DNA of 64,000 nt from Microterricola viridarii (GTDB lineage: Bacteria; Actinomycetota; Actinomycetes; Actinomycetales; Microbacteriaceae), in assembly GCF_001542775.1 (NCBI RefSeq), contig NZ_CP014145.1:3472001-3536000 (forward strand), written 5' to 3'. Position 1 is the stretch's first letter, and the number at the start of each line of letters is the position of its first letter. The position numbers and the translations under genes are program-made. The notes under the pieces are model-generated. The model had not been told where the DNA came from, made no database searches, and worked only from the letters and a program-made list of their open reading frames with translations. Shown piece by piece: positions 1,399 to 15,471 of this stretch.

Positions 1399-2349
1399 AT
1401 GAAGACCACGAACCTCGAGTTCACGAGTGAGGGAGATCGCCTCTCGGCGATCTGGCGCACGCCCGACACCCCCGGCCCGTACCGCGCCATCGTGCAGGGT
1501 CCCGGCTGGCTCGGCCTCAAAGACGCGAAGCTCTACGTTCGCTACCACGAGGCGCTCGTCGAAGCCGGATTCGCCGTCCTCATCTTCGATTACCGGGGCT
1601 TCGGCGACTCTGAGGGCGACCGCGGCATCCTCTCGCCGGCCCGCCAGCTGCAGGACCTCGTGAACGCGGTCACCTATCTGACCACCCGCGACGACGTCAT
1701 CGCCGACGCGATCGGCGTCTTCGGCACCGGTGGGACGGGCGGCGGCAACGCCGTGCTGCTCGCCGACGCAGACCCGCGCATCAAGGCGGCCGTCAGCCAG
1801 GTGCCCGTCGCCGACGGTACCGACTGGCTGCACCGCATGCGCCAGGAGCACGAATGGCTCGCGTTCCTCGCGAGCCTCGACGAAGACCGCAAGCTGCGCG
1901 TCTCCACCGGCGTCGGCCGCCTCGTGCACCCGCGTGAAGAGATCATGGTGCCGACGCCAGAGCGCCGCGCCACGACGATCAAGGCCGACGTCGACGACCG
2001 CATCCCCAGCGCGATCCCGCTCTCCTGCGCCGAGGAGATCCTGACCTACCGCCCGCTGGCCGCCGCCGAGCGCCTCACCACGCCGCTGCTCGTGATCGGC
2101 GTCGAGGGCGACGCGACCACGCCCACCGACCACGCCGAGGCCCTCTACGCCGCGGCGAAGGGGCCGAAGCAGCTCATCATGCAGCGGCACACCACCCACT
2201 ACGCGGCCTACGACCGCTACTGGGAGCAGACCACCCCGCGCATCGTCGACTGGCTGGACCGCCATGTGCGCCCGAGCGACGTCGTCGTTCGCACCACCGA
2301 ATCGCCCGAAGCGGGCGAGACCATCGAATACACGGAGGCAGGACTGTGA
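1399..2349 (+). CDS. Alpha/beta-hydrolase lacking the usual serine nucleophile
   Basis: This 316-residue cytoplasmic protein has an alpha/beta-hydrolase fold. It shows the oxyanion region PGWLGLKD, the FDYRGFGDSEG strand-turn, an acid-loop aspartate (GVEGDATTP) and a histidine near the C-terminus (RHTTHYAAY). The nucleophile elbow reads IGVFGTGGTGGGN, where relatives have G-x-S-x-G-G. The catalytic serine is therefore absent, with glycine or threonine in its place. It is the first gene of an operon and overlaps the next by 4 bases. Its position recalls RutD of the pyrimidine Rut pathway, but the altered elbow makes esterase activity doubtful. Its substrate is unknown. Confidence 0.85.
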   Translation: MKTTNLEFTSEGDRLSAIWRTPDTPGPYRAIVQGPGWLGLKDAKLYVRYHEALVEAGFAVLIFDYRGFGDSEGDRGILSPARQLQDLVNAVTYLTTRDDVIADAIGVFGTGGTGGGNAVLLADADPRIKAAVSQVPVADGTDWLHRMRQEHEWLAFLASLDEDRKLRVSTGVGRLVHPREEIMVPTPERRATTIKADVDDRIPSAIPLSCAEEILTYRPLAAAERLTTPLLVIGVEGDATTPTDHAEALYAAAKGPKQLIMQRHTTHYAAYDRYWEQTTPRIVDWLDRHVRPSDVVVRTTESPEAGETIEYTEAGL

Positions 2350-3758
2350 GCATTGACCTGAGAATCAGTGGCGGCACCGTCGTCACCCCGAGCGGCCCCA
2401 TCGCCGGAGACCTGCTCGTGCACGACGGCAAGGTCGCGGGCGTCGTCGCACGTGACGTCGCCGTCGACGCGAGCCGCACGATCGACGCCTCTGGCCGTCT
2501 CGTGCTGCCCGGCATGGTCGACGTGCACGTGCACACCCGCGAGCCCGGGTACGAGCACAAGGACGACATCTTCACCACCAGCCGCCAGGCCGCGGCCGGC
2601 GGCGTGACCACCATGTTCGGCATGCCGAACCTGAAGCCGCCGACAGTCGACGTCGCGAGCCTGACCGACGTCTTCGAGCGCTACACGAGCTCGTCGATCG
2701 TCGACTGGAACCACAACCCGGCGCCGACCCAGTTCGACGACATCGTTCCGATGGCCGAGATGGGCATCAACGCGTTCAAGATCTACATGGTTGTCGACAC
2801 GGGCCGTGACTACCCGCACCCCTCCGGCACCGGCATCCACGACCACGGCCACCTGCTGCAGATCATGGATCAGATCGCCCCCACCGGCAAACGATTCATC
2901 ATCCACCCGCACGACCAGAAGCTCATGGACTACATCGAGGGCGCCGTGCTCGCCAGCGGCGACAACACCCCGGAGGGCTACGCCTCGGCATACGCGGCCC
3001 GCGAGGGCGTCATCTGGGACACGGCGATCGACGTCGTGCTCCGCCTCGCCGAGGCATCCGGATGCCCGGTGCACATCGCGCACATCCAGACGCGCCGCTC
3101 GATCGAGGCCGTGCGCCGCGCGAAGGCCAATGGCGTCGACGTCACCTGCGAGGTCAACCACTGGGCGCCCTTCCTCTCGACCTGGGAAGACGTGCAGACG
3201 CTCGGCCCGTACGCACTCTCCTACTGGGTGCCGGACGAGAACCGCGCCGCGATCTGGGAGGGCATGCGTGATGGCACCATCGACGTCGCGAGCTCCGACC
3301 ACGCGCCGCACACCCGCGAGGAGAAGGAGATCGGCTGGACGCAGATGTGGAGCGCCCACACCGGCACTCCCGGCATCCAGTACTACTACGAGCTCATGCT
3401 TGACGCCGTGAACCGCGGCGAGCTCACGCTCGAGCGCGTGGTCGAGATGGTGGCCCAGGTCCCGTCCGAGAAGTTCGGGCTCGCGGGCATCAAGGGCACC
3501 CTCGAGGTCGGTGCCGACGCCGACATCGTGATCGCCGACATGGCGCACGAATGGACCATCACCGACGACGACGTGCTGTCGAAGATCGGCTGGACACCGT
3601 ACAACGGGCGCACCATCAGCACCCGCATCGAGCGCACCCTGGTGCGCGGAACCGACGTCTACGTCGACGGCGTTGTCGTCGGCGAGCCCGGGTATGGAAA
3701 GCTCGCGGCCGCTCCGGCCGCACGCACGGCCGAACTGGCCGCAACGGAAGGGAAGTGA
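2346..3758 (+). CDS. Dihydroorotase/hydantoinase/allantoinase-family cyclic amidohydrolase
   Basis: This 470-residue binuclear metal amidohydrolase hydrolyses a cyclic amide bond. All expected ligands are visible: HxH in DVHVHTREPGYEHKDD, the carbamylated lysine in NAFKIYM, histidines in FIIHPHD and VHIAHIQT, and the aspartate in ASSDHAPHT. The REPG motif places it nearer dihydroorotase and allantoinase than the dihydropyrimidinase at 21559. It starts with GTG, overlapping the previous stop by 4 bases. Its neighbours are an LLM oxygenase and an importer, not pyrimidine biosynthesis genes. I infer catabolic opening of a ring such as a hydantoin, pyrimidinone or lactam. The exact substrate cannot be read from sequence. 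Confidence 0.88.
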   Translation: MSIDLRISGGTVVTPSGPIAGDLLVHDGKVAGVVARDVAVDASRTIDASGRLVLPGMVDVHVHTREPGYEHKDDIFTTSRQAAAGGVTTMFGMPNLKPPTVDVASLTDVFERYTSSSIVDWNHNPAPTQFDDIVPMAEMGINAFKIYMVVDTGRDYPHPSGTGIHDHGHLLQIMDQIAPTGKRFIIHPHDQKLMDYIEGAVLASGDNTPEGYASAYAAREGVIWDTAIDVVLRLAEASGCPVHIAHIQTRRSIEAVRRAKANGVDVTCEVNHWAPFLSTWEDVQTLGPYALSYWVPDENRAAIWEGMRDGTIDVASSDHAPHTREEKEIGWTQMWSAHTGTPGIQYYYELMLDAVNRGELTLERVVEMVAQVPSEKFGLAGIKGTLEVGADADIVIADMAHEWTITDDDVLSKIGWTPYNGRTISTRIERTLVRGTDVYVDGVVVGEPGYGKLAAAPAARTAELAATEGK

Positions 3759-3760
3759 AC

Positions 3761-4735
3761 ATGAAATTCGGTCTGCTGCTGCCGCACTTCGGCGAACACG
3801 CCAGCAAGGACAAGCTGCTCGAGGGCTCCAAGCGCGCTGAGGAACTCGGCTTCGACTCGGTCTGGGTGCGCGACCACCTCGTCTTCGAGCCGCACGGCGA
3901 GATGGAGAAGCCGAACCGCACGTTCTACGACGCGCTCACGACGCTCACCGCGATCGGTGCCGTCACCGACAAGCTGGAGCTCGGCACCGGTTCGCTCATC
4001 CCGTTCCGCCACCCGCTCGTGACCGCGCTCATGGCCGGCACGATGACCCAGCTGCTCGGCCCGCGCCTCATCCTCGGATTCGGCGCCGGCACCTTCGACC
4101 ACGAGTTCGAGGCGATCGGCTGGGGTGACAAGGACCGCGTCGAGTTGGTGCGCTCCAATGCCGAGATCCTCAAGCGGGTCTTCACCGAGAACGACGTCAC
4201 CTACGACGACGGCATCTTCAACTTCGAGAACGTCACGATCGAGCCGAAGCCGGTCGGCGGCAGCGTTCCGTTCTGGTACTGCGGTGCAACACCGCGTTCG
4301 GCCCGCCTCGCGGCGGAATTCGCCGACGGCTGGATGCCCGGACGCATCTCGCTCGCATCGATCGAGAAGCGCATGGGCGTCATGAAGGAGATGACGGATG
4401 TCTCTGGCCGCCCGATGCCGAAGGTCGGTGTGATCCCGCCCACCTCGATCGAGGCGACGCGCAAGGAGGCGCTCAAGGACGTCAACGTTCCCGGTCTGCT
4501 CGCCTGGGCCAACAAGGCCAAGTTCGCGGTCAAACCGCCGTCGGGTACCTTCGAGACAGTCGAAGACCTCGAAGGGCAGCTGATCGTCGGCAACCCCGAC
4601 GAAGCGGTGGAGGAGATCAAGAAGTTCCAGGCGACCGGGGTCGACCACCTCGTCTTCGACTTCCGTTTCAAGTTCGACCGGTTCTTCGAACAGATCGAAC
4701 TGCTCGGCAACGAAGTACTGCCCAAGCTCCGCTGA
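3761..4735 (+). CDS. LLM-class flavin/F420-dependent oxidoreductase
   Basis: This 324-residue protein belongs to the bacterial luciferase-like TIM-barrel superfamily, whose members use FMN or F420. Typical blocks are MKFGLLLPHFG, AEELGFDSVWVRDHLV, LELGTGSLIPFRHP, LILGFGAGTF and WYCGATPRSARLAAEFADGW. The chosen ATG lies two bases after the amidohydrolase stop, so the two are coupled. By position it may oxygenate or reduce the ring before amide hydrolysis, as RutA does for uracil. It is shorter than RutA (about 360-380 residues), so equivalence is only suggestive. Whether it uses FMN or F420 cannot be decided here. Confidence 0.85.
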   Translation: MKFGLLLPHFGEHASKDKLLEGSKRAEELGFDSVWVRDHLVFEPHGEMEKPNRTFYDALTTLTAIGAVTDKLELGTGSLIPFRHPLVTALMAGTMTQLLGPRLILGFGAGTFDHEFEAIGWGDKDRVELVRSNAEILKRVFTENDVTYDDGIFNFENVTIEPKPVGGSVPFWYCGATPRSARLAAEFADGWMPGRISLASIEKRMGVMKEMTDVSGRPMPKVGVIPPTSIEATRKEALKDVNVPGLLAWANKAKFAVKPPSGTFETVEDLEGQLIVGNPDEAVEEIKKFQATGVDHLVFDFRFKFDRFFEQIELLGNEVLPKLR

Positions 4736-4754
4736 CGCGAAGCCGAAGCAGGGT

Positions 4755-4787
4755 GATGCCGGTGGCCCCAGTGGGGCCGCCGGCATC
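4755..4787 (+). terminator. Stem-loop inside the operon, possible attenuating terminator
   Basis: Arms of 15 bases (starting GATGCCGG, ending CCGGCATC) pair with one mismatch around a 3-base loop. It sits in the 120-base gap between the LLM gene and the ABC ATPase gene. No T-run follows, so it may reduce read-through or protect mRNA ends rather than stop transcription. Confidence 0.5.
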
Positions 4788-4855
4788 GGCACAGGCGCTT
4801 GCGCCGCACATCTTTTCCCGAGACCGAAGAAGTTCCCGAGAGTGCGAGAGAGAGT

Positions 4856-5704
4856 ATGACCACAATGACGCTGCCGACCACCGAACGAGACGAGCCCGCG
4901 GCATCCGCCCCGCTCATCTCGGTGCGTGACCTCACGGTCAGCTACAACATCGCCCGGACCGGTGCGACGCTCACCGCGGTCGACGGGGTGAACCTCGACG
5001 TACACGAAGGGGAGTTCGTGACCGTGCTCGGCCCATCGGGCTGCGGCAAGACCACGGTGATGAACGTGATCGCCGGGTTGGTCAAACCCACCAGCGGCGA
5101 CGTGCTCGTCGATGGCCGCCCCGTGACCGGCCCCGGCCCAGACCGCGCCGTCGTGTTCCAGGACTACGCGTTGCTGCCGTGGCGCACCGTCTTCGACAAC
5201 GTCAAGTTCGGCCTTGAGATGCAGAAGCAGCTCAAGGGCGATGGATGGCGCGAGCGCGTGCAGGAGGCCATCGAACTCGTCGGCCTCAAGGGCTTCGAGG
5301 CGTCGTACCCCAAGGAGCTCTCCGGCGGCATGCAGCAGCGCGTCGGGCTCGCCAGGGCGGTCGTCGCGGAACCGCGCATCCTGCTCATGGACGAACCGCT
5401 CGGTGCCGTCGACGCGCTCACCCGCGAGGTGATGCGGGCCGAGATCGAGAAGCTCATCGCCGCGACGGGCAAGACCGTGCTGTTCATCACGCACTCCATC
5501 GAAGAGGCGATCCTGCTCGGCGACCGCATTGTCGTCTTCAAGAGCAACCCGGGCGCCATCAAAGAGATCATTGAGACGAACCTGTCGCGCCCGCGCTCCG
5601 AGCGCAGCGTGCAGAGCGACCCCCGCTTCCTGGAACTGCGCGACCACCTCTGGGACGCGCTGCAGGCCGAGGCGACCCAGGCCGCGGTGGCGGGCGGGTC
5701 ATGA
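4856..5704 (+). CDS. ABC importer ATPase (nitrate/sulfonate/taurine type)
   Basis: This 282-residue cytoplasmic ATPase powers an importer of the SsuB/TauB class. Walker A is GPSGCGKTT (residues 59-67), the signature is LSGGMQQR (about 155-162) and Walker B is ILLMDEP (about 175-181). The VFQDYALLPWRTV Q-loop is typical of the nitrate/taurine branch. I chose ATG 4856, preceded by GAGAG. An in-frame ATG nine bases on is possible. Two permease genes follow with 4-base overlaps. No binding protein lies in this operon. The orphan one at 8622-9704 is the likely partner. The substrate is probably the compound degraded by the neighbouring enzymes. Confidence 0.92.
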   Translation: MTTMTLPTTERDEPAASAPLISVRDLTVSYNIARTGATLTAVDGVNLDVHEGEFVTVLGPSGCGKTTVMNVIAGLVKPTSGDVLVDGRPVTGPGPDRAVVFQDYALLPWRTVFDNVKFGLEMQKQLKGDGWRERVQEAIELVGLKGFEASYPKELSGGMQQRVGLARAVVAEPRILLMDEPLGAVDALTREVMRAEIEKLIAATGKTVLFITHSIEEAILLGDRIVVFKSNPGAIKEIIETNLSRPRSERSVQSDPRFLELRDHLWDALQAEATQAAVAGGS

Positions 5705-6534
5705 GCGTCCTCTTCGCGAGCGGGCCGCGAACCGGAAGAGGAGGGCTCGCCGCCTGGCTCGCCGACCTCTCGACCGGGGGCAAGGCCGTCGTCATCGCCG
5801 TCGAAGTCTTCGTAGTGCTGCTGCTCTGGCAGCTCATCGTCGGCTACTGGGGGCTGGTCAACCCGGTGTTCTTCCCGCCGCCCCTCGCGGTCGCGCAGGG
5901 CTTCGCCGAGATCATCGCCAACGGCTCGCTTGCCGCGAACGCGGGAATCTCGGCGCAGGCGTGGCTCACCGGTTTCACGATCGCCGTGGTGATCGGCATC
6001 CCCGTCGGCCTGCTCATGGGCGCCTCGCTGCCGGTCGACAAGGTCGTCGGCCCGATCGCCTGGACGATCTATGCGACGCCGGCCATCGCGTACCAGCCGC
6101 TCGCGAAGGCCTGGTTCGGTTTCGGAATCGGGCCGGTGATCTTCTTGGTCGTGATCAGCGCGATGTTCCCGATCATGTTGAACATCGCGGCCGGGATGCG
6201 CACCACCAACCCGTCGATCCTGCGCGCCGGCCAGGTCTACGGCGCCAGCAAGATCGACCTCTACCGGCGGGTGTTCCTGCCGTCGACGGTGCCGTTCCTG
6301 TTCGCCGGGCTGCGCCAGGCGGTCGTGCTCGCCACGATCGGCATGGTCGTCGCGGAGCTCTCCGGCTCATCCAGTGGCATGGGCGCACTCATCGTCAGAG
6401 CCACCAACACCTATCAAACAGACCAGGCCTTCGCCGCGATCGGCGTCGTTGTCGCCTGGAGCGTCGGCATGACCGGCGTTGTGACGCTCGTCGAGCGCTG
6501 GGTCGCCCCGTGGACGAGGAAGGCACGCCGATGA
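5701..6534 (+). CDS. ABC importer permease (SsuC/TauC-like)
   Basis: This 277-residue integral membrane subunit has about six hydrophobic segments. The first lies near residues 27-50 (VVIAVEVFVVLLLWQLIVGY). Conserved permease-family text includes VIGIPVGLLMG, the TPAIAYQPLAKAWFGFGIG region and the cytoplasmic coupling loop around GAGQ-like RAGQVYGASKIDLYRRV. It starts inside the ATPase gene (ATGA overlap) and overlaps the next permease the same way. The two permeases would form a heterodimeric channel. The substrate is unknown and inferred from the degradative operon. Confidence 0.9.
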   Translation: MSVLFASGPRTGRGGLAAWLADLSTGGKAVVIAVEVFVVLLLWQLIVGYWGLVNPVFFPPPLAVAQGFAEIIANGSLAANAGISAQAWLTGFTIAVVIGIPVGLLMGASLPVDKVVGPIAWTIYATPAIAYQPLAKAWFGFGIGPVIFLVVISAMFPIMLNIAAGMRTTNPSILRAGQVYGASKIDLYRRVFLPSTVPFLFAGLRQAVVLATIGMVVAELSGSSSGMGALIVRATNTYQTDQAFAAIGVVVAWSVGMTGVVTLVERWVAPWTRKARR

Positions 6535-7361
6535 CCGCCACCGCCTCCATCGAAACGCTGAACGCGCCGCCGCGGCGCCGCGGTTCCGGACTGAGCAGCT
6601 GGACCACGGTGCTGCTCGCCGTGATCGCCGGCATCCTGCTCATCTGGGAGGCAGCCGTCTCGTGGCTGCATCTCGTGCCAGAGGCCTTCCTGCCGCCGCC
6701 GACGGCCGTGTTCGCGTCGTTCCTGCAGCTGCTCATTGATCCCGAGTTCTGGCAGGCCTTCGCCTACAGCATGCAGAACCTGCTGATCGGGCTCGTGCTG
6801 GCCGTCGTCGTCGGTGTCGTCGTGGGGCTCGCGGTCGGCTGGTCGCCGGTGCTGCGCTTCACCGTCGCGCCGTTCCTCTGGCTGCTGTACTCGACGCCGA
6901 AGGTGGCCCTCGCGCCGCTGTTCATCCTGGTGCTCGGGCTCGGCAGTGCCTCGAAGATCGCTCTCGTGTTCCTGCTGGCGGTGTTCCCGATCATCCTGAA
7001 CACGATGGAGGGCGCCGTCACCGTGCAGGCCTCGCTGGTGAACGCCAGCCGGGTGTACGGGGTGAACGGGGTGGCACTCGGCTGGAAGGTCATTCTGCCC
7101 GCCACACTGCCCTACAGCCTCGCGGGAATCCAGCGGGGTGCGGCGCTCGGCTTCACCGGCGCGGTGCTCGGCGAGTTCCTCGGTGGCACCGGTGGCCTCG
7201 GGCACATGCTCGAGTTCGCGGCGTACCAGTTCGAGATGGACAAGGCGATCGCAATGGTCATCGTGATGGTCATCATCGCGAACCTCACGCTCGCGCTCAT
7301 CTCGGGGCTGCGCAAGCGGCTCGCGCCCTGGTACGACGACCGACAGATCATGGGCCGGTAG
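6531..7361 (+). CDS. ABC importer permease (SsuC/TauC-like), second subunit
   Basis: This 276-residue membrane protein is homologous in layout to the previous permease. It has a first membrane span near residues 23-45 and the block YSTPKVALAPLFILVLGLG. The coupling loop is NASRVYGVNGVALGWKVILPATLPYSLAGIQR (split here: the key EAA-like part is SRVYGVNG...LPATLPYSLAG). The start ATG at 6531 overlaps the previous stop by 4 bases. It ends 22 bases before the RidA gene, so that gene is probably co-transcribed. Confidence 0.9.
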   Translation: MTATASIETLNAPPRRRGSGLSSWTTVLLAVIAGILLIWEAAVSWLHLVPEAFLPPPTAVFASFLQLLIDPEFWQAFAYSMQNLLIGLVLAVVVGVVVGLAVGWSPVLRFTVAPFLWLLYSTPKVALAPLFILVLGLGSASKIALVFLLAVFPIILNTMEGAVTVQASLVNASRVYGVNGVALGWKVILPATLPYSLAGIQRGAALGFTGAVLGEFLGGTGGLGHMLEFAAYQFEMDKAIAMVIVMVIIANLTLALISGLRKRLAPWYDDRQIMGR

Positions 7362-7383
7362 GCCGCAACCCGAACGGAGCACC

Positions 7384-7788
7384 ATGCGCAAAGACATCAT
7401 CGTTCCCGAGGGCATCTACCCTCCCACGGCGCAGTTCAGTCAGGCGATCCGCGTCTCCGGCGGCGACCTCGTGTTCGTGAGCGGCATCATCGGCATGCGA
7501 GCGGATGGCTCGCTGCCGGAGACCACGCGCGAGCAGATCGAGGTCGCCTTCGAGAACCTCACGGCGGTGCTGCGTGCGGCGGATGCCTCGCCCGACGACG
7601 TCGTCAAGGTGAACGTTTTCATCGGCGAGGAGTTCCGCCTCCTGCGCGACGACCTGCGCGAGATCCGTGCCAGGTACTTCACGCACGACTTCCCGGTGTC
7701 GACGCTCGTGCAGGTTGCCGGCTTCGCCGGTCCCGACTACCGCTTCGAGATCGAGGCGATCGCGGCGGTGGAGGCACGCGAGCAGTAG
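7384..7788 (+). CDS. RidA/YjgF/UK114-family protein
   Basis: This 134-residue trimeric-barrel protein belongs to the family that deaminates enamines/imines or protects against 2-aminoacrylate. Family landmarks are GDLVFVSGIIG, the helix FENLTAVLRAADAS, VVKVNVFIG and FEIEAIAAVE at the C-terminus. The arginine normally found in the ARSCV motif of active deaminases seems replaced: here the stretch reads PVSTLVQVAG. That suggests one of the Rid subfamilies without standard imine deaminase activity. It is the last gene before a clear hairpin. In the Rut pathway RutC, also a RidA protein, acts on aminoacrylate, so a ring-fragment role is plausible. Confidence 0.88.
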   Translation: MRKDIIVPEGIYPPTAQFSQAIRVSGGDLVFVSGIIGMRADGSLPETTREQIEVAFENLTAVLRAADASPDDVVKVNVFIGEEFRLLRDDLREIRARYFTHDFPVSTLVQVAGFAGPDYRFEIEAIAAVEAREQ

Positions 7789-7806
7789 CCGGGTTCGACG
7801 TAGACT

Positions 7807-7843
7807 GTCGGCCCCCGCGTCATGCGCGACAGCGGGGGCCGAC
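7807..7843 (+). terminator. Terminator-like stem-loop after the RidA gene
   Basis: A perfect 12-bp stem (GTCGGCCCCCGC and its complement) encloses a 13-base loop. It lies between the RidA gene and the nitroreductase gene. It is followed by TTCGTGG rather than a T-run. It suggests the nitroreductase is at least partly transcribed on its own. Confidence 0.6.
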
Positions 7844-7897
7844 TTCGTGGGGAGCGCGGCGTGAGACCGCCGCGGTTCGGGGGAGTAAGGGGAGCGC

Positions 7898-8512
7898 ATG
7901 GAATTCGAGGGGGTCGTCGCCGGCCGGCGAATGGTTCGGCGGTACACGACCGAACCGGTGGCTCCGGCATCCGTCGACCGGATGCTGCGCAACGCCGTGC
8001 GCGCCCCCAACGCGGGATTCACGCAGGGCTGGGCGTTTCTGCGCCTGGACGAGCCGGAGGCGGTCGCCCGATTCTGGCAGTCGACGACGCCACCGCTCGA
8101 GGGCAAGGGCGAGAGCTCGTGGCTCCGTGGGATGCGTACGGCCCCCGTTGTGATCGTGCCGCTCTCCTCGAAGGCCGCGTATGTGCGCCGCTACGCCGAG
8201 GGCGACAAGGGGTGGAGCGAAGAGGAAGAGCCGCGCTGGTCGGTTCCGTACTGGCATGTCGACGCGGGGATGGCGGCGCTGCTGATCTTGCAGACGGCGG
8301 TGGACGAGGGGCTCGGTGGCTGCCTGTTCGGCGTGCCGGCCGAGCGCGTGGCCGCCTTCCGCGCCGCGTTCGATATCCCGCCGGAGTACGAGCCCGTCGG
8401 CGCGATCACCATCGGCCATGCCGAACCGTCGGGCACCCGCGGCGGTTCTCCCTCGCGTCGCGCGCGACGGCCCATCGACGAGGTCGTGCACCGGGGGCGT
8501 TGGGGCGGCTGA
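7898..8512 (+). CDS. Nitroreductase-family FMN protein
   Basis: This 204-residue protein has the nitroreductase fold, which binds FMN and uses NAD(P)H. The N-terminal RRMVRRYTTEPV segment is the FMN phosphate-contact motif. APNAGFTQGWAF, HVDAGMAALLILQTAVDEGLGGCLFG and PVGAITIGHAEP are the other family blocks. AAGGGGAGCG precedes the ATG. In the Rut pathway RutE, of this family, reduces malonic semialdehyde, so its place beside LLM and RidA genes is notable. Its real substrate is unknown. It faces the binding-protein gene across a shared terminator. Confidence 0.87.
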   Translation: MEFEGVVAGRRMVRRYTTEPVAPASVDRMLRNAVRAPNAGFTQGWAFLRLDEPEAVARFWQSTTPPLEGKGESSWLRGMRTAPVVIVPLSSKAAYVRRYAEGDKGWSEEEEPRWSVPYWHVDAGMAALLILQTAVDEGLGGCLFGVPAERVAAFRAAFDIPPEYEPVGAITIGHAEPSGTRGGSPSRRARRPIDEVVHRGRWGG

Positions 8513-8553
8513 GGCTGCCGCTCGACCCCACGCAGCAACCCCGACACAGCAGA

Positions 8554-8587
8554 AGACCCCCGCCGGCATGCGCTCCGGCGGGGGTCT
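8554..8587. terminator. Bidirectional terminator between convergent genes
   Basis: A perfect 13-bp stem (AGACCCCCGCCGG with its complement) closes an 8-base loop. It lies midway between the nitroreductase stop and the stop of the convergent binding-protein gene. CCTCTT follows on the + strand. Confidence 0.8.
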
Positions 8588-8621
8588 CCTCTTCAGTCGA
8601 GCCGAGACTCGACGGATGCAA

Positions 8622-9704
8622 TCAGGGGTAGGGCAGCGTTGCCGGGCCGTCGTTGTTCGTGCCGACCAACTCCTGGGCCTTGTTGAGGTAGACGAGCTGG
8701 GACCGGTCGAACTCGATCGGCTCGAGCGACTGCGTCTCGATCGTGGTGTCCCATGCCTCGGTGTCGAAGTACAGGTTCGAGCAGGCGAGGTGGCCGTCCA
8801 GAACCCACGGGCTGTCGCTGCCGCGCAGCGCCTCGACGTCGAAGTCGTTCGCCTGGTAGATGTCGAGCACCGAGTCGACGTTTTCGGGGAATTCGCCCGG
8901 CGCCGGCGCCGTCATGTACCCGGTCGCCTTCAGCGTCGCGCGAAGGAATCGAACGAGGGTGTTCGGGTTCTCTTTCACCCAGCCGCTGCCCGCGACCTGC
9001 ACGTCGTTCGCCCAGTTGCGCAGCGACTCGACGATGACGTTCGCGCCGTGCTCCTCGAGGGCCGGCAGGTCGTCTGCGTAGAAGGGCTGCAGCGCAATGC
9101 GGTCGTTCACGAAGAACTCCGTCCACGACTCGGAGCCGGGGCCGGGGTAGGCGATCTCGGTGTTGACGGTGTCGAGGTCCCAGCCCTCTTCCTTCAGCAC
9201 GAGCTTGCGCTGGAACTCGGCCGGGTCGCCGGGTGTTCCGGCGAGCACGATGGTCTCACCCTCCAGGTCTTCAACCTTGGTGATGCCCGCCTGTGCGGCG
9301 AAGTCGAAGTTCTGGCGGCAGTAGTGGCCGCCGACGAGGTCGATGTCGACACCGCCGCGGATCGCCTCGATCACCGTTCCGGTCGACTCGACGCCGATGT
9401 CGGCGCTGCCGCTGGCGACGGCCGCCGTCACGTTGTCGGCCGTGATGACCTCGACGGTGAGGCCCTCGTCCTCGTAGTAGCCGAGGTCGGTCGCGAGGAT
9501 GAACATCGAGTACATCGTGATGTCCGGGAACGGGATGGCGACGGTGATCTCGGTGTCCTCGGCGGCACCGGGCTCTCCGTCGGCGAGGGCGACGGGCTCG
9601 GAGCCGGCCGTGGCTCCGTTGTTTGCCGCGCATCCGGCGAGCAGTGTGAAGGCGGCAATGCCGGCGGCCACGCTGAGGCCGGTACGTTGGATGGATCTGC
9701 GCAT
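8622..9704 (-). CDS. ABC substrate-binding lipoprotein (NMT1/SsuA-like), orphan
   Basis: This 360-residue periplasmic-type binding protein is anchored as a lipoprotein (TLLAGCAANN, cysteine near residue 25). After a low-complexity linker the mature domain starts ITVAIPFPDITMYSMF. ATDLGYYEDEGLTVEV and SGSADIGVESTG are hallmarks of the SsuA/TauA/NMT1 family. GGAG stands five bases before the ATG. No permease or ATPase is beside it in its own direction. The importer at 4856-7361 lacks a binding protein, so I pair them. An operator palindrome stands 68 bases before its start, and another guards the divergent dehydrogenase operon, so control is probably shared. Confidence 0.9.
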   Translation of the reverse strand: MRRSIQRTGLSVAAGIAAFTLLAGCAANNGATAGSEPVALADGEPGAAEDTEITVAIPFPDITMYSMFILATDLGYYEDEGLTVEVITADNVTAAVASGSADIGVESTGTVIEAIRGGVDIDLVGGHYCRQNFDFAAQAGITKVEDLEGETIVLAGTPGDPAEFQRKLVLKEEGWDLDTVNTEIAYPGPGSESWTEFFVNDRIALQPFYADDLPALEEHGANVIVESLRNWANDVQVAGSGWVKENPNTLVRFLRATLKATGYMTAPAPGEFPENVDSVLDIYQANDFDVEALRGSDSPWVLDGHLACSNLYFDTEAWDTTIETQSLEPIEFDRSQLVYLNKAQELVGTNNDGPATLPYP

Positions 9705-9771
9705 GATGCTCCATTCTTGGCGGTGGGTTGCACGGGACGCTCGCTCAGTGTGAACGCCCCGCTTGCTGTGA

Positions 9772-9786
9772 TGGATACCGTATCCA
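9772..9786. promoter_or_regulatory. Operator palindrome before the orphan binding-protein gene
   Basis: TGGATACCGTATCCA is a perfect 7-1-7 palindrome. It lies 68 bases upstream of the binding-protein start. The form resembles GntR-type operators. No such regulator gene is visible in the island, so the protein that binds it is unknown. Confidence 0.7.
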
Positions 9787-9915
9787 GAGTCCAGAGCCCT
9801 GTCTAGGAACTCGACAGATTCGTCACGACGCGGGGCCGCCCGTTCCGGCCCGCGAGGGCGGCCGGACCGCGCAGACCGCGGCCGCAGCAGAAGACACTAG
9901 ACAGACTTCCTGCAA

Positions 9916-9934
9916 ATTGGATACGGTATCCAAT
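9916..9934. promoter_or_regulatory. Operator palindrome before the dehydrogenase/CoA-transferase operon
   Basis: ATTGGATACGGTATCCAAT is a perfect 9-1-9 palindrome. It contains the same TGGATACnGTATCCA core as 9772-9786. It ends 49 bases before the MDR gene. The two centres are 146 bases apart in one divergent control region. Confidence 0.75.
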
Positions 9935-9983
9935 AGGTGTCGCGGGGCTGCGGCACGGTCGACACGTCGAGAGTGAGCAAGCG

Positions 9984-11006
9984 ATGCAGGCAGCACTTCT
10001 CACCGCGCATGGCCTCGATGGCCTCTCCGTCACCGGGGCAGACGTGCCAACGCCGGGGATCGGCGAAGTGCGCATCCGCGTCGAGACCGTCGGCCTCAAC
10101 CAGCTCGACCTCAACGTCATCTCCGGGCGGGGCCCTGGCGCCGCCGCGAAGCTCCCGCGCGTGCTCGGGCTCGACCCTGCCGGTGTCATCGACGCCGTCG
10201 GACCCGGTGTCGAGAGCTCCCGAATCGGCGAGCCGGTCGTCGTGAAGCCGAACATCCCGTGCGGCCGGTGCCCCCGCTGCAGCGCAGGTCGCGAAGCCGA
10301 CTGTCCCACGCAATCCGTGGTCGGGGTGCACCGCGACGGCGGGGCGGCCGAGTACGTCGTCGTGCCCGCGCGCAGCGCCTTCGCACGCGGGTCGATCCCC
10401 GCGGCCCTCGCCTCTGCGGCCGTGCACAGCCTGCCGATCGTCATCAACGCCTTCGAGGCGGCAGCCGTCAGCCGGCACGACCGCGTGCTCGTGACCGGCG
10501 CGAGCGGCACCCTCGGCCAGCTGGCCGTCGCCTACGCGCGGCACCTCGGAGCCACCGTCGTCGCAGCATCACGCGCCCCCATCACGGGTGCAGCTGCTTC
10601 GGCCGCAGCCGACGGTGTGCGTACCGTGCTCGTCGACTCGCCGGCGATACTCGCAGACGCCGTGGCACTCGGCGGCGCGCCCGACGTCGTCATTGACGTC
10701 ACCGGGCACGCGCCAACGCTCGCCGCAGCGATCACCGGCCTCGGCTGGGGCGGTCGCGCCGCTTTCTGCTCGGCATCGGTCGATGCCCACCTCGAACTCG
10801 ACTCCCGTGACTTCTACATCAAGCGCAAGCGGCTGGCCGGGGTGGCGAGCGCCGACTACGCCCAGGTCGAGCGCGCCATCGCGCTCGTGGAATCCGGGGC
10901 GATCGTTCCGCCGATCGGCAGCCGCATCGCGCTCGCGGACATCGCACGCGCCTACCGCGACTTCGCCTCCTCTCCCGCCGGGAAGGTCATCGTCGATGTC
11001 CGTTGA
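9984..11006 (+). CDS. Zinc-type MDR (medium-chain) dehydrogenase/reductase
   Basis: This 340-residue protein has the alcohol dehydrogenase/quinone reductase fold. A Rossmann nucleotide site VTGASGTLGQLAV lies near residues 172-184. The structural-zinc loop CGRCPRCSAGREADC has four cysteines. The usual catalytic-zinc ligands are not evident: the GHE motif region reads VLGLDPAGV and no cysteine stands in NQLDLNV. It may therefore work as an NADPH-dependent enoyl or quinone reductase. It is the first gene of a rightward operon under the palindrome at 9916. The next gene starts 134 bases on. Confidence 0.87.
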   Translation: MQAALLTAHGLDGLSVTGADVPTPGIGEVRIRVETVGLNQLDLNVISGRGPGAAAKLPRVLGLDPAGVIDAVGPGVESSRIGEPVVVKPNIPCGRCPRCSAGREADCPTQSVVGVHRDGGAAEYVVVPARSAFARGSIPAALASAAVHSLPIVINAFEAAAVSRHDRVLVTGASGTLGQLAVAYARHLGATVVAASRAPITGAAASAAADGVRTVLVDSPAILADAVALGGAPDVVIDVTGHAPTLAAAITGLGWGGRAAFCSASVDAHLELDSRDFYIKRKRLAGVASADYAQVERAIALVESGAIVPPIGSRIALADIARAYRDFASSPAGKVIVDVR

Positions 11007-11140
11007 ACTCACCGACCGTGCGCGACTGCGCGCCTCGCGGCAGCCGTACCCGTGTGTGACATGGTGAGGCATCGCGGATCACCCCTGAGCGACACACGCC
11101 CAGACCCCTTCAGCGCCGAAGACCGAGAGGAACCGACCAG

Positions 11141-12328
11141 ATGAGCGACGACCAGCCGCAACCTCGCGCAGACGAGGAGGCCGCCGCGGGCCCCCTGCGC
11201 GGCATCCGAGTCATCGAATTGGGGCAGTACATCTCTGGCCCCTACGCCTCGAAACTGCTCGCCGACCTCGGTGCAGACGTGATCAAGGTCGAGGCGCCGG
11301 AGGGCGACCCGATGCGCCGCTGGGAGGGCAACGGCACGATGAGCCCGCAGTTCGCCGCCTACAACCGCGGCAAGCGCGGGGTGACGCTCGACCTGAAGAG
11401 CGCAGAGGGGCTCGACGACCTGCTCGAGCTGGCGCGCACGGCCGACGTGCTGATCGAGAACTTCCGGCCCGGCGTCGCCGCTCGGCTCGGCTTCGGGCCC
11501 GACGTGCTGCACGACCTCAACCCGCGTCTCATCACGTGCTCGATCACGGGGTTCGGCGGCGGAGGGCCCTATGCGAAGCGGCCCGCGTACGACACCGTGA
11601 TCTCTGCGGTCGGGGCGATGTACAGCCAGGTGGTGCCGGCCGACACCCTGCGGCCACTCGGCCCGGCGTTCTCTGACCTGCTCTCTGGACTGTCGGCTTC
11701 GCAAGCCGTTCTCGCGGCGCTGCACGCCCGCTCGGAGCGCGGCGAGGCGGGGGAGGGCGAGCACCTCGAGGTGTCGATGGTCGGCTCCCTCATCGACTTC
11801 CTCACCGAAGCCGCGTCGACGTTCCTCGAGACCGGCCAGGTCGCCGGGCCCGACTCCCGGCCGCGCCGGGCGCAGGCGTACGCGTGCGTCGGCTCCGACG
11901 GCAAGGCCTTCGTCATCCACATGTCGGTGCCCGAAAAGTTCTGGACCGGCCTCGTCGCGGTGCTCGGGGCGCCGGAATTGGCGTCCGACTCCCGCTTCGA
12001 CACGCGCGAGGGCCGCGTGCACAACTACGACGCGCTCGACGCGGAACTCAAGGCCATCACCGAGCGGATGCCGCGCCAGCACTGGCTCGATGCGCTCGCC
12101 GCCGCCGACATCCCGCACGGCCCACTCAACACGGTCGCCGACCTGTTCGATGACCCGCAGGTGGCCTCGATGGGACTCGTCGAAGAGATCACCGGGCACG
12201 ACGGCACACCGCTCCGGGTGCCCGCGCCGAGCACGATCTTCCACCGCAGCGGCCGACCCGCGCTGCACGCCGCGCCCGGGCTCGGTGCCGACAACGAGCG
12301 TGTGCTCAGCGAAAGGACTCCCGCATGA
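11141..12328 (+). CDS. Class III CoA-transferase (CaiB/BaiF family)
   Basis: This 395-residue enzyme moves coenzyme A between carboxylic acids. Family features are GIRVIELGQYISGPYASKLL, LGADVIKVEAPEGDPMR, the LTLDLKS-like VTLDLKS, and VLIENFRPGVAARLG. The conserved nucleophilic aspartate of the family is most likely the one in AFSDLLSGLSAS. It ends in a 4-base overlap with the amidohydrolase gene. In this operon it could activate a ring-cleavage or aromatic acid for further breakdown. The acid itself is not identifiable. Confidence 0.9.
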   Translation: MSDDQPQPRADEEAAAGPLRGIRVIELGQYISGPYASKLLADLGADVIKVEAPEGDPMRRWEGNGTMSPQFAAYNRGKRGVTLDLKSAEGLDDLLELARTADVLIENFRPGVAARLGFGPDVLHDLNPRLITCSITGFGGGGPYAKRPAYDTVISAVGAMYSQVVPADTLRPLGPAFSDLLSGLSASQAVLAALHARSERGEAGEGEHLEVSMVGSLIDFLTEAASTFLETGQVAGPDSRPRRAQAYACVGSDGKAFVIHMSVPEKFWTGLVAVLGAPELASDSRFDTREGRVHNYDALDAELKAITERMPRQHWLDALAAADIPHGPLNTVADLFDDPQVASMGLVEEITGHDGTPLRVPAPSTIFHRSGRPALHAAPGLGADNERVLSERTPA

Positions 12329-13185
12329 ACATCGACGACGTCGTCGCCATCGACGTGCACACCCACCCGCAGACCGAGGAATTCCTCGCGGCGATGGGGC
12401 AGCGGCACCAGCAGATGGCGAAGCATTTCGGGCGCGAACGCCCCGTGGTGTCGTTTGCCGAGCAGGCCGACCAGTACCGTGAGCGCAAGATGATGGCCGT
12501 CATCGTGAACTCCGATTCCGAGACGACGTCGGGCATCAAGGGTGCGCCGAACGACCTACTCGGTCAGGCGCAGGTGGACCACCCCGATGTGTTCCTGTCG
12601 TTCGCGGGCATCGACCCGTGGAAGGGCGAGGCCGCCGTCGCCGAGATCCGTCGCATGCACGCCGAGTACGGCATCAAAGGCGTCGGCGAGCTCAACCCGT
12701 CGCGGCAGAAGTTCCTCGCGAACGACCGCCGGTTCTTCCCGATCTGGGAGACGTGCGCCGAGCTCGGGCTCGTCGTCATGTTCCACTCCGGATTCCCAGG
12801 GGCGGGGGCCGGAACACCCGGCGGTGGCGGTTACCGCCTCGAGAACGCGAAACCGGTGCCGTACATCGATGACGTCGCCGCGGAGTTCCCCGAACTCAAG
12901 ATCATCAGCGCGCACCCGGCCTGGCCGTGGCACCTCGAAAACCTCGCGATGGTGTGGCACAAGTCGAACGTGTACCTGGACCTGTCGGGGTGGGCGCCGA
13001 AGTACCTGCCGCCGGAGGTCGTGCGCTATGCCGACTCGCTGATCAGTGACCGGGTGCTGTTCGGCTCGGACTGGCCGGTGATGACGGCCGACCGGTGGAT
13101 GGACGAGTTCAACGAGCTGCCGTTCAAACCCGAGTCGCGCCAGAAGATCCTGCTCGACAACGCTCGCACGCTTTTCGGACTCTAA
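12325..13185 (+). CDS. Amidohydrolase-2 (ACMSD/LigI/LigJ-like) metal enzyme
   Basis: This 286-residue protein belongs to the COG2159 amidohydrolase family. The family includes aminocarboxymuconate-semialdehyde decarboxylase, gamma-resorcylate decarboxylase and the LigI and LigJ enzymes of protocatechuate meta-cleavage. Ligand motifs are AIDVHTHPQ at the N-terminus, VMFHSGFPG, IISAHPAWPW and FGSDWPVM. It is placed between a CoA-transferase and a LigBA dioxygenase. I infer decarboxylation, hydration or hydrolysis of a ring-cleavage product or its aromatic precursor. The fold is secure and the reaction is not. Confidence 0.88.
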   Translation: MNIDDVVAIDVHTHPQTEEFLAAMGQRHQQMAKHFGRERPVVSFAEQADQYRERKMMAVIVNSDSETTSGIKGAPNDLLGQAQVDHPDVFLSFAGIDPWKGEAAVAEIRRMHAEYGIKGVGELNPSRQKFLANDRRFFPIWETCAELGLVVMFHSGFPGAGAGTPGGGGYRLENAKPVPYIDDVAAEFPELKIISAHPAWPWHLENLAMVWHKSNVYLDLSGWAPKYLPPEVVRYADSLISDRVLFGSDWPVMTADRWMDEFNELPFKPESRQKILLDNARTLFGL

Positions 13186-13194
13186 GGGGACACC

Positions 13195-14037
13195 ATGGCG
13201 AAACTCGTAATGGCGGCGGTCACGCCCCACAACCCATTGCTCTGGCGCGCAATGCGCGAGCCTCTGCCCGACGACCTGCGGGGCGTCGCGGCGAACTTCG
13301 CGCTCATCCGCGACACGATCACCGAGCTCGGCGTCGACGTGATCATCGAGGTCGGCACCGATCACATCCGCCAGTTCTTCGGCGACAACCAGCCGGCGTT
13401 CCTCGTCGGTAAGGCCGAGAGCTACCACGGCACCTACGAGAACGAGGTGCGCACGTTCGGCATGGAGTACAGCGAGATCACGGGGCACCGCGAGCTCGCC
13501 GATCTCATCGCCGGGCGTGACGTGCTCACCGAGGCGATCGACTTCGCCGTCAGCCACGAGTGGCGCCTCGACCACGGTTTCACGATTCCGCTGCACTATC
13601 TGACGCCGAACTTCGACATCCCGATCGTGCCGATCAACGTGAACTCCACGCTGCCGCCGCTGCCGAGCCCGCGTCGCTTCGCCGCGCTGGGCGAGCACCT
13701 GCGCGACACCGTCGAGCGCTGGGACTCCGACGCCCGGGTGGCGATTCTGACGTCGGGGCACATGGCCACCGATGTCGGTGGGCCCAAGCAGTTCGCGGGT
13801 TCGCCCGACCCGGTGTTCGACGCCGAGGCGGTCGCGTGGATGCGCGACGGCGACCTCGAGGGCGCGATTCACGGCTGCCGCTATGAACGCATCATCGAGG
13901 CGGGCAACATCACCTACCAGTACGTCAATGCACTCACCGCGCTCGCCGCGATGGGCGGCGTGCCCGCCGACCTCGCCGAGGCGACAGAGTCGCGCTTCGC
14001 GTCGAGCCCGTTTTTCATGTGGAAGGCCCCGGTATGA
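13195..14037 (+). CDS. LigB-type extradiol ring-cleavage dioxygenase, catalytic subunit
   Basis: This 280-residue Fe(II) dioxygenase subunit belongs to the LigB (protocatechuate 4,5-dioxygenase beta) superfamily. Histidines appear in the expected places: TPHNPLLW near residue 12, VGTDHIRQFF, LDHGFTIPL and SGHMATDVGG. It cleaves a catechol-like ring next to the diol using O2. AGGGGA lies before the ATG. Its stop overlaps the small LigA-like subunit by 4 bases, so the two are made together. It is not a 3-carboxyethyl-catechol type by neighbours. The natural substrate could be a substituted dihydroxybenzoate or dihydroxypyridine. Confidence 0.88.
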   Translation: MAKLVMAAVTPHNPLLWRAMREPLPDDLRGVAANFALIRDTITELGVDVIIEVGTDHIRQFFGDNQPAFLVGKAESYHGTYENEVRTFGMEYSEITGHRELADLIAGRDVLTEAIDFAVSHEWRLDHGFTIPLHYLTPNFDIPIVPINVNSTLPPLPSPRRFAALGEHLRDTVERWDSDARVAILTSGHMATDVGGPKQFAGSPDPVFDAEAVAWMRDGDLEGAIHGCRYERIIEAGNITYQYVNALTALAAMGGVPADLAEATESRFASSPFFMWKAPV

Positions 14038-14381
14038 GCAAGTACATGATCGACAAGTTCATGCGCGCCGTCGAGATGAGCGACGCGGCGGTCGACGCCT
14101 ACGTCGCCGACACGGCCGGCTTCGTCGAAGCCTGGGAGACGGCATCCGGCGGCACCGATCGTCCGACCGACGATCGCACGCTCACCGCCGAGGAGCGCGC
14201 GGCGTTCATCGCGCGCGACTTCGAGGCGCTCTACGTGCTCGGCGCGCACCCGTATCTGCTCTGGCACTTCACCGAGGCGATCTTCACGCACGAGTTCACC
14301 GACACGTTCGGCTGGCGGGACCTCGTCGAGCGCTACCGGGCGGCCGTGACGCCGTACGGGGTGCCCGACTACATCGCCTAA
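14034..14381 (+). CDS. LigA-type extradiol dioxygenase, small subunit
   Basis: This 115-residue protein matches the protocatechuate 4,5-dioxygenase alpha (LigA) family. The helix-rich pattern is IDKFMRAVEMSDAAVDAYVA, then LTAEERAAFIARDFEALYVLGAHPYLLWHF, with positions like those in Sphingomonas LigA. LigA caps the active site of LigB and shapes its specificity. The ATG at 14034 overlaps the LigB stop. It is the last gene of the rightward operon. The cofD gene comes in from the other side, 50 bases away when read to its expected end. Confidence 0.8.
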   Translation: MSKYMIDKFMRAVEMSDAAVDAYVADTAGFVEAWETASGGTDRPTDDRTLTAEERAAFIARDFEALYVLGAHPYLLWHFTEAIFTHEFTDTFGWRDLVERYRAAVTPYGVPDYIA

Positions 14382-14431
14382 GCGCCCGGCTGAGCACGCC
14401 CGGCTGGCCGCGCCCCTCGTGGGCAGCGCGG

Positions 14432-15471
14432 TCAGCGCGCGCGGTGGGCCAGGTCGAGCGCCGCGCCCGCGAGGGCGGCCGAGGTGTCGAGGTCATGCAT
14501 CCAGAGGGGGCGGACGCGGCAACCAGCCCGTCCGCGGCCAGCCCGGCCACCGCGGCGGCATCGACTTCATCGAGGAGCCAGCCGTCGAGCAGCCCGCCCG
14601 CCGAGCGTGGCCCGTAGTGCCGGGCGACGGCTGCGGCATCCGTCTCGACGCCGATCGCGGCGAGGCAGGCGTCGGCCATGCCGCGCACCACGGAGCCGCC
14701 GATGATGGGCGACACCCCGACGACGGGTGCCGCGGTGGCGGCCAGCGCCTCGCGCATGCCCGGGATCGCGAGGATCGTGCCGATCGACACCACCGGGTTC
14801 GACGGGGCGATGAGCACGACATCGGCGTCGGCGATCGCCGCCAGCACGCCCGGTGTCGGCCGTGCGACCTCGAGGTGTTGCTGTTCGAAGCCACGGGCCG
14901 GGATGCCCGCGCGGTGCTTCGTCCACCACTCCTGGAAGTGCAGACGGTCGCGCCCGCCGACGCGCTCGTCGCTCGCATCGACCACAACGTGGGTGTCGAC
15001 CTCGGTGTCGGTCGCGGGCAGCAGGTGCGCGCCGAGCGGCCACCGCTGCTGCAGACGCTCGCCGACCTCTGTCGGCGTCAACCCCTCGCGCAGCCACGAC
15101 GTGCGAGCCAGGTGCGTGCCGAGGTCGAGGTCGCCGAGGGTGAACCAGGGCCACCCGACGCCCCATGCGCGCAGCTCGGCCGAGACCCGTTCGCTCTCGC
15201 CGGCACGCCCCCAGCCGCGTTCGGTGTCGTTCACGCCCGCGAGCGCATAGAGCAGCGAGTCGAAGTCGGGCATGAGCCGCACGGCCGAGAGCCAGAGGTC
15301 GTCGCCGGTGTTCACGACGACCCTGATCGACGCGGATGTCGCGGGCCCGGCCCCGTCGGAACCGGTGCCCGGTGTGCCAGCAGGCGCGGGCCAGCGGCGC
15401 GCGCACTCCTCGCGCACTCCGCGCACGAATCGTGCGCCCCCGACCCCGCCAGCGAGCACCGTGATTTTCAT
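14432..15471 (-). CDS. cofD: 2-phospho-L-lactate transferase CofD, with an apparent frameshift near its end
   Basis: CofD joins lactyl-phosphate (or its phosphoenolpyruvyl form) to the deazaflavin Fo, making F420-0. The start MKITVLAGGVGGARFVRG and VVNTGDDLWLSAVRLMPDFD are diagnostic. The first reading frame is good to about residue 320. There, at a run of five G on the + strand (14506-14510), the frame leaves the family pattern and would run on to 14296, into ligA. In the next frame the expected ending LWMHDLDTSAALAGAALDLA follows at once and stops at 14432. One missing base in the G-run explains both. It may be a real mutation or a sequencing error. Confidence 0.85.

Follow-up and report, generated by a model that had tools for sequence, protein, structure and literature searches.

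A catabolic gene island of Microterricola viridarii that shares an operator with F420 supply genes, and its proposed role in reductive opening of a nitrogen heterocycle

The window considered here is a 64,000-nt stretch of the 3.69-Mb single-contig genome of Microterricola viridarii (NZ_CP014145.1, 3472001-3536000), and towards its left end lies a catabolic gene island with genes for cofactor F420 on both flanks. Gene families were assigned by Pfam and NCBIfam profile scans of the island proteins. The core of the island is a trio of plus-strand genes, encoding an alpha/beta-hydrolase-fold protein of the S15/UilS-like type (ABH, 1399-2349), a cyclic amidohydrolase of the hydantoinase/allantoinase/dihydroorotase superfamily (AMH, 2346-3758) with dihydroorotase-like R65 and H322, and an LLM-class oxidoreductase (LLM, 3755-4735, with its start set at 3755), which we propose to be an F420H2-dependent ring reductase. 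Further to the right on the same strand, a Zn-dependent alcohol dehydrogenase (ADH) family protein (9984-11006) is followed by the second half of the island, which consists of a family III CoA-transferase (11141-12328), the PF04909 amidohydrolase AMH2 (12325-13185), a LigB-like protein of class III extradiol fold with a remodelled metal and catalytic site (13195-14037), and a LigA-like small subunit (14034-14381). On the left flank, the minus-strand gene at 71-1117 encodes the substrate-binding protein of a putative F420-0 ABC transporter (TIGR03868, 475.5 bits, cut-off 392.4), whose permease and ATPase genes lie immediately left of the window. The right border of the locus is formed by CofD/FbiA, the 2-phospho-L-lactate transferase of F420 biosynthesis, on the minus strand (14296-15471; TIGR01819, 295.7 bits, cut-off 257.45).

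The two halves share an operator. The palindrome TGGATNNNNNATCCA, which the first-pass annotation had described as common to both, occurs exactly at 1254-1268 between the transporter gene and the trio (TGGATTCTGGATCCA) and twice in front of ADH, at 9772-9786 (TGGATACCGTATCCA) and 9918-9932 (TGGATACGGTATCCA), and an operator-like site with 1 mismatch lies at 1236-1250. With at most one mismatch allowed, 4 sites were observed in the 64 kb against 0.71 expected, and none of 100 shuffles reached this number. We then surveyed 60 actinobacterial AMH loci with 10-kb flanks for both operators and synteny; the loci end at flank or contig ends, so absences among them are soft. The gap between the transporter gene and ABH held an exact site in 24 of the 26 loci with both flanks, and in 26/26 with one mismatch allowed. 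The gap between the NMT1-type gene and ADH, which precedes the second half, held a site in 25/25 loci with one mismatch allowed (16 exact), and at least two sites in 23 of the 25. Sites were found in 4/24 stretches between LLM and the ABC importer, three of which (L067, L070, L083) are divergent ABC/trio promoter regions and the fourth is that of Leifsonia sp. Root4, and in 0/6 gaps between the second permease and RidA. Across 27 selected loci (549 kb) we counted 61 exact sites, compared with 0, 1 and 0 in three first-order simulations.

The same operator also precedes F420 genes. A TIGR03557-like LLM had a site within 250 bp upstream in 16/19 loci (7 exact). Downstream of 13 of these 19 LLM genes lie CofE and/or CofC and FGD, and all 13 had an upstream site with one mismatch allowed (6 exact); the remaining 6 lie near the trio, with a site in 3. 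In the M. viridarii genome, the stretch left of the window (L094) carries CofE, a GntR-FCD regulator, an F420-type LLM, a second CofE, CofC, FGD, and the transporter ATPase and permease, and sites with one mismatch lie upstream of the GntR-FCD gene (L094:7162) and of the F420-type LLM (L094:8028, 8035). The GntR-FCD regulator is probably the protein that binds the operator. In four genus members the CofD locus is without the trio; three of these loci (L096, L097, L098) contain one single-mismatch site each upstream of the transporter and the fourth (L095) contains none, so that the operator may have been linked to F420 before the island arose, or the sites may be chance.

Genes for F420 supply adjoin the transporter and trio in Microbacterium paraoxydans (L044) as well, where the order is F420-type LLM, CofE, FGD (621 bits, cut-off 420), CofC, CofD, transporter and trio; the FGD of M. 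viridarii is 88% identical to that of L044, and its CofC showed 44% identity over 129 residues. The two CofE-like genes in the M. viridarii F420 locus (L094:6326-7099 and 9181-9975) have a counterpart arrangement in the G144 stretch L099. The transporter substrate-binding protein was found in 26/60 AMH loci. A CofD match was present in 6/6 AMH-positive Microbacteriaceae genomes (in G013 as two pieces under the cut-off) compared with 131/299 overall, 128 of them over the cut-off (P 0.0066; our Fisher and hypergeometric P values ignore relatedness). In a genus sample of 5 genomes, which includes Leifsonia sp. Root4 (G003), no AMH was found in G001, G002 or G004 at E up to 1e-60, and in these three CofD adjoins the transporter, while CofE and FGD are found close by. 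G001, G002, G003 and G004 (L095-L098) each have, at a distance of about 3 kb from the F420 transporter, a gene for a cyclic amidohydrolase that shares only about 26% identity with AMH. The CofD frame of the window is 391 aa long and matched the model only to position 276 of 301, with an arginine-rich tail that overlaps LigA on the opposite strand; the model match also ends early in G001, G003 and G004 (279, 277 and 260), and it reaches 296 in G002.

F420 biosynthesis is incomplete in the M. viridarii genome, in that CofD is present and the FO synthase (CofG/CofH) is not detectable. Neither CofH (0/9) nor CofG (0/9) was found in the genomes of its group, M. viridarii included; the CofH model was over its cut-off in 75/118 genomes of the class and 18/299 of the family. 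CofH-like matches at E up to 1e-30 were present in 67/299 Microbacteriaceae, 18 over the cut-off and 49 below it, and the latter were counted as divergent FbiC, since 46/49 fall within reading frames 779-1244 aa long and CofD is present in 66/67 of the genomes. The TIGR03868 transporter was over its cut-off in 80/299 Microbacteriaceae. Among the 131 CofD-positive genomes, it was present in 51/65 that lack a CofH-like gene and in 0/66 that have one; 14 genomes had neither at these thresholds, 4 of them with transporter matches of 320-330 bits. This mutual exclusion suggests that, where CofD is kept, the putative F420-0 transporter imports FO in place of FbiC. The transporter also occurs in 29/168 CofD-negative genomes, for which the F420-0 name may still fit. 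Among the titles listed for FO uptake or TIGR03868 in open-licence PMC, none was relevant.

The trio enzymes were examined by alignment and structural comparison. The best PDB sequence matches of LLM were F420-dependent Mer, with FGD lower and luciferases and others also present, and the top Foldseek match of its model (pLDDT 83.8) was apo-FGD1, mixed with FMN enzymes. Together with the genomic context, this similarity leads us to propose that LLM uses F420. With E up to 1e-40 as the limit, 2213 clusters of homologous proteins were counted, some of which are not orthologues. The closest PDB sequence to AMH is an L-hydantoinase, followed by allantoinases and dihydroorotases, and its metal site, by alignment an HxH, a carboxylated Lys, two His and an Asp (H61, H63, K145, H187, H246 and D318), is invariant in 23/23 sequences and places it in the cyclic amidohydrolase superfamily. 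R65, N95 and H322 are likewise invariant in 23/23. R65 and H322 align with the HVHLREPG and DHAPH motifs of Bacillus anthracis dihydroorotase and N95 with its Asn, and the equivalent residues in dihydroorotase bind the substrate carboxylate. Three allantoinase alignments showed Ser or Asn at the position of R65 and Cys or Ser at that of H322. Among the best 25 of 50 models, AMH remained under the cut-offs of the dihydroorotase, allantoinase and hydantoinase models (PRK06189, 280 of 631 bits; PRK02382, 278.6 of 452 bits). ABH has Gly at the nucleophile position, in a GxNxG motif, in 55/55 aligned sequences, with Thr or Ser one residue earlier, and it keeps Asp238 and His267. It has no Ser, Cys or Asp nucleophile as in serine-type alpha/beta hydrolases, and because the nucleophile is missing its chemistry may be non-textbook.

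The remaining genes between the halves include those of an ABC importer, with an ATPase of the taurine/nitrate type (4856-5704, alternative longer start 4799) and two permeases (5701-6534 and 6531-7361), followed on the same plus strand by a RidA-family protein (7384-7788) and a nitroreductase-superfamily protein (7898-8512; weak NCBIfam matches only). An NMT1/SsuA-type substrate-binding protein on the minus strand (8622-9704) presumably serves the importer, and a perfect 12-bp inverted repeat, terminator-like, lies at 8555-8586 between the convergent nitroreductase-like and binding-protein genes. The importer, this binding protein, ADH and the F420 genes on both flanks were absent from the first-pass annotation; the gene classes that it did name (LLM, alpha/beta-hydrolase, RidA, nitroreductase, cyclic amidohydrolase, CoA-transferase, PF04909 amidohydrolase and LigBA) were all recovered by Pfam/NCBIfam, nitroreductase and LigA only weakly.

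In the second half, the best NCBIfam match of the CoA-transferase was succinate-glutarate CoA-transferase (226.3 of 750 bits), and the LigA-like protein scored 22.3 bits on PF07746, under the 25.3 cut-off, and is paired with LigB in related loci. The LigB protein has the class III extradiol fold (Foldseek E about 1e-18 against LigAB/DesB, PDB 1bou and 3wku), and it shares with these enzymes two His and a small LigA-like partner. It differs from them in its active site, for which residue roles follow those in LigB/MhpB. The metal-ligand Glu of three canonical enzymes is replaced by Gln in 9/9 aligned orthologues and by Gly in 8/8 cousins, and the catalytic-His motif GGLSH reads SGHMATD in the window LigB, with the His displaced; model residues 193-199, beside the altered site, have pLDDT below 50. 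The set of two His, one Glu and a catalytic His is thus incomplete, and a plain extradiol assignment was rejected. With the metal Glu and catalytic His not conserved, the meta-cleavage ending proposed by the first-pass annotation is doubtful, and LigB chemistry too may be non-textbook. AMH2 homologues on plasmids lay near feruloyl-CoA synthase and crotonase in 2/5 records examined, which is at most suggestive.

Across the 60 loci, ABH-AMH-LLM was contiguous in 54. Of the other six, L066, L078 and L083 hold all three genes outside the spacing/identity rule, L064 lacks LLM, and L060 and L081 have AMH alone. Hosts of the trio range from Agromyces and Microbacterium to Mycolicibacterium, Amycolatopsis and Pseudonocardiales, and AMH at E up to 1e-90 was found in 6/299 Microbacteriaceae genomes. 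No AMH orthologue was found on plasmids, where 1035 records matched, all below 60% identity. A molybdenum (Mo)-hydroxylase subunit was present in 14/60 loci, 13 of them with the whole trio; the families concerned were MoCoBD, FAD_binding_5 and Fer2_2, with a CoxG neighbour, and Mo hydroxylase and second half were never found in one locus (0/14). Tct transporters and Mo hydroxylases are partners of the trio in Mycolicibacterium and Pseudonocardiales-type loci. In four Mycolicibacterium-type loci (L055, L057, L061, L062) an aspartase/fumarase-family gene follows the trio, hinting at an aspartate-like product; in the Mycobacterium sp. locus L057 this gene overlaps the end of LLM and scores over the PRK12273 cut-off.

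We consider it fairly probable that the island encodes an F420H2-dependent reductive ring-opening pathway for an N-heterocycle, organized as one regulon with its own cofactor supply. The regulon, probably that of the GntR-FCD regulator, would cover both F420 supply and ring breakdown. A deazaflavin precursor would be imported by the ABC transporter, and F420 would be finished and recharged by CofC, CofD, CofE and FGD. LLM would then hand hydride from F420H2 to a carboxylated aromatic or conjugated lactam/imide ring, AMH would hydrolyse the amide, by then non-aromatic, and ABH would handle the ring-opened product, perhaps by Asp-His chemistry of a non-canonical kind. The ABC importer would take up the substrate in this lineage, and in other actinobacteria the Mo hydroxylase beside the trio would produce the lactam. 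ADH, CoA-transferase, AMH2 and the LigB/LigA-like pair would lead either the product or a companion part on to CoA-linked central metabolism. The order of reduction before amide hydrolysis is proposed because of the enzyme classes and the reductive uric-acid route as outlined in the source cited below. The nitrogen-ring substrate suggested by the first-pass annotation is plausible in view of the cyclic amidohydrolase and the Mo-hydroxylase partners in related loci, and a carboxylated lactam or imide is favoured, indirectly, because of the AMH residues, the Tct-type transporters in Mycolicibacterium loci and the Mo-hydroxylase partners. Orotate, in view of the aspartase-like gene in L057, nicotinate (presumably via 6-hydroxynicotinate), isonicotinate (presumably via citrazinate) and picolinate were weighed as candidates and none was settled on. 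A fuller version of the model is more tentative: an FO auxotroph would import FO and make and recharge F420 under a catabolic operator, and would use F420H2 to dearomatise a carboxylated N-heterocycle reductively under aerobic conditions; the ring would then be opened, with further steps by LigB-fold and alpha/beta-fold enzymes whose catalytic residues were swapped for new chemistry.

Several observations weigh against this pathway. LLM scored 150.5 bits on TIGR03619, under the cut-off of 166.9, and its structural neighbours include the FMN-dependent SfnG and SsuD. The L-hydantoinase, which lacks an Arg at AMH position 65, has a His at 322, and N95 also aligns with an allantoinase Asn beside a one-residue insertion. 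No operator site was found in the gap between ADH and the CoA-transferase gene (0/17 loci). No CofC, CofD or CofE was seen in the 7 Mycolicibacterium-type loci, one of which (L061) has FGD about 8 kb away, and CofD and the trio are on separate contigs in Leifsonia sp. Root4. G013 has the trio without a LigB orthologue, with 1 TAG reported within its AMH frame.

The partial separation of the two halves also weighs against a single pathway and bears on a second explanation, that the trio and the CoA-transferase/AMH2/LigB-LigA half act on different compounds as two pathways under one regulator. With the second half counted as present when any of its four genes was found at 40% identity or more, it was present in 28/60 loci, in a same-strand arrangement in 24 and a divergent one in 4 (L069, L070, L080, L083); the other 32 loci had no second-half gene, some of them cut by a flank or contig end. 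Cousins of the LigB/LigA-like pair also occur away from the trio, beside a CoA-transferase in 10/11 short Microbacteriaceae loci and on two alphaproteobacterial plasmids, and four wider cousin regions also contain citrate-synthase-like and Amidohydro_1 genes (by Pfam on L105, by BLAST on the other three), a different amidohydrolase from that of the island. This separate Microbacteriaceae operon (L102, L103, L105-L108) comprises CoA-transferase, citrate-synthase-like (citryl-CoA lyase), LigB-like, LigA-like and Amidohydro_1 genes, comparable sets are carried by Sinorhizobium plasmids and, lacking the amidohydrolase, by those of Aminobacter MSH1, and the aligned LigB cousins carry Gly at the metal-Glu site. 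However, operators precede both halves wherever the gaps are readable, and in Actinomadura, Nonomuraea and Phytoactinopolyspora the second half is re-paired with the trio divergently. A LigB match at E up to 1e-50 was found in 16/299 genomes, and its 5 orthologues (68-100% identity) were all in AMH-positive genomes, that is in 5/6 of these and 0/293 others, whereas the 11 other matches had 34-37% identity. We give two separate pathways a small but real chance, and the earlier claim of one co-regulated catabolic unit made of two co-occurring halves is borne out by the shared operator and the co-occurrence.

The first-pass annotation had likened the left half to the Rut uracil pathway, in which, as generally described, LLM, alpha/beta hydrolase, RidA and nitroreductase classes also occur. 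By this analogy LLM would open an amide ring oxidatively as an FMN/O2 enzyme; its PF00296 membership, the neighbouring RidA and hydrolase genes, and the FMN-dependent enzymes among its structural neighbours would fit. But RutA was not among the PDB sequence matches of LLM at E up to 0.001, no RutB, RutF or RutG was recognised in the family scans of the island genes, nor any flavin reductase gene among those scanned, and RidA scored 38 bits on TIGR03610, the RutC equivalogue model, under its cut-off of 169.1. The two other shared classes are poorly conserved: RidA was found in 15/66 loci, and the nitroreductase-like gene in 1/66, the window itself (both counts include it). On these grounds Rut membership was rejected, and with the dense F420 context a Rut-like oxidative route appears quite improbable. 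The best NCBIfam match of the nitroreductase-like protein was the FbiB C-terminal domain (50.4 bits, cut-off 249.55), and it might be an F420-tail enzyme instead of a RutE analogue. It is hardly credible that the trio degrades deazaflavins (FO/F420) themselves. The trio adjoins the deazaflavin-precursor transporter, and a ring resembling uracil might be a suitable substrate for a cyclic amidohydrolase, but F420 biosynthesis and recharging genes share its operator, and in Mycolicibacterium and Pseudonocardiales-type loci Tct transporters and Mo hydroxylases accompany the trio instead.

To our knowledge, little has been learned outside methanogens about how F420H2, a low-potential hydride donor, supports growth. 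In the F420-dependent degradation of picrate and 2,4-dinitrophenol by Nocardioides, hydride from F420H2 is reportedly transferred to an aromatic ring in catabolism, as proposed here; that system acts on nitroaromatics, and we know of no cyclic amidohydrolase or cofactor-import regulation in it. The reductive pyrimidine and uric-acid routes (PydA/PydB; YgfK/SsnA/HyuA), as far as outlined in PMC12507026, resemble the island in reductive dearomatisation followed by ring opening by an amidohydrolase, and the same outline places putative F420-dependent luciferase-family genes near the SsnA amidohydrolase in Chloroflexota. Unlike these routes, the island has a hydantoinase/allantoinase/dihydroorotase-like AMH under every cut-off shown, F420 supply genes in the regulon, and no recognised carbamoyl or ureido hydrolase. 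The lumichrome lum cluster, in the outline given by PMC12746152, shares hydrolytic pyrimidine-ring opening, a xanthine-oxidase-type enzyme (compare the Mo-hydroxylase loci) and an extradiol step; it centres on a P450, a Rieske enzyme and a thiamine-pyrophosphate decarboxylase, none of which was seen in the island, and the lumichrome pathway was rejected because its gene set differs.

The first-pass annotation knew of no described pathway with this gene set, and none was found in open-licence PMC, judged by titles and the starts of abstracts. What is new in this catabolic cluster is its cofactor arrangement. If the model is true, such a regulon, in which obtaining F420 is tied to a single catabolic route, would offer a concrete and testable explanation for the retention of F420 by some Microbacteriaceae, and a role would be given to a widespread LLM of unassigned function. 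A further prediction would be FO import by F420-0 transporters in bacteria with CofD but without FO synthase.

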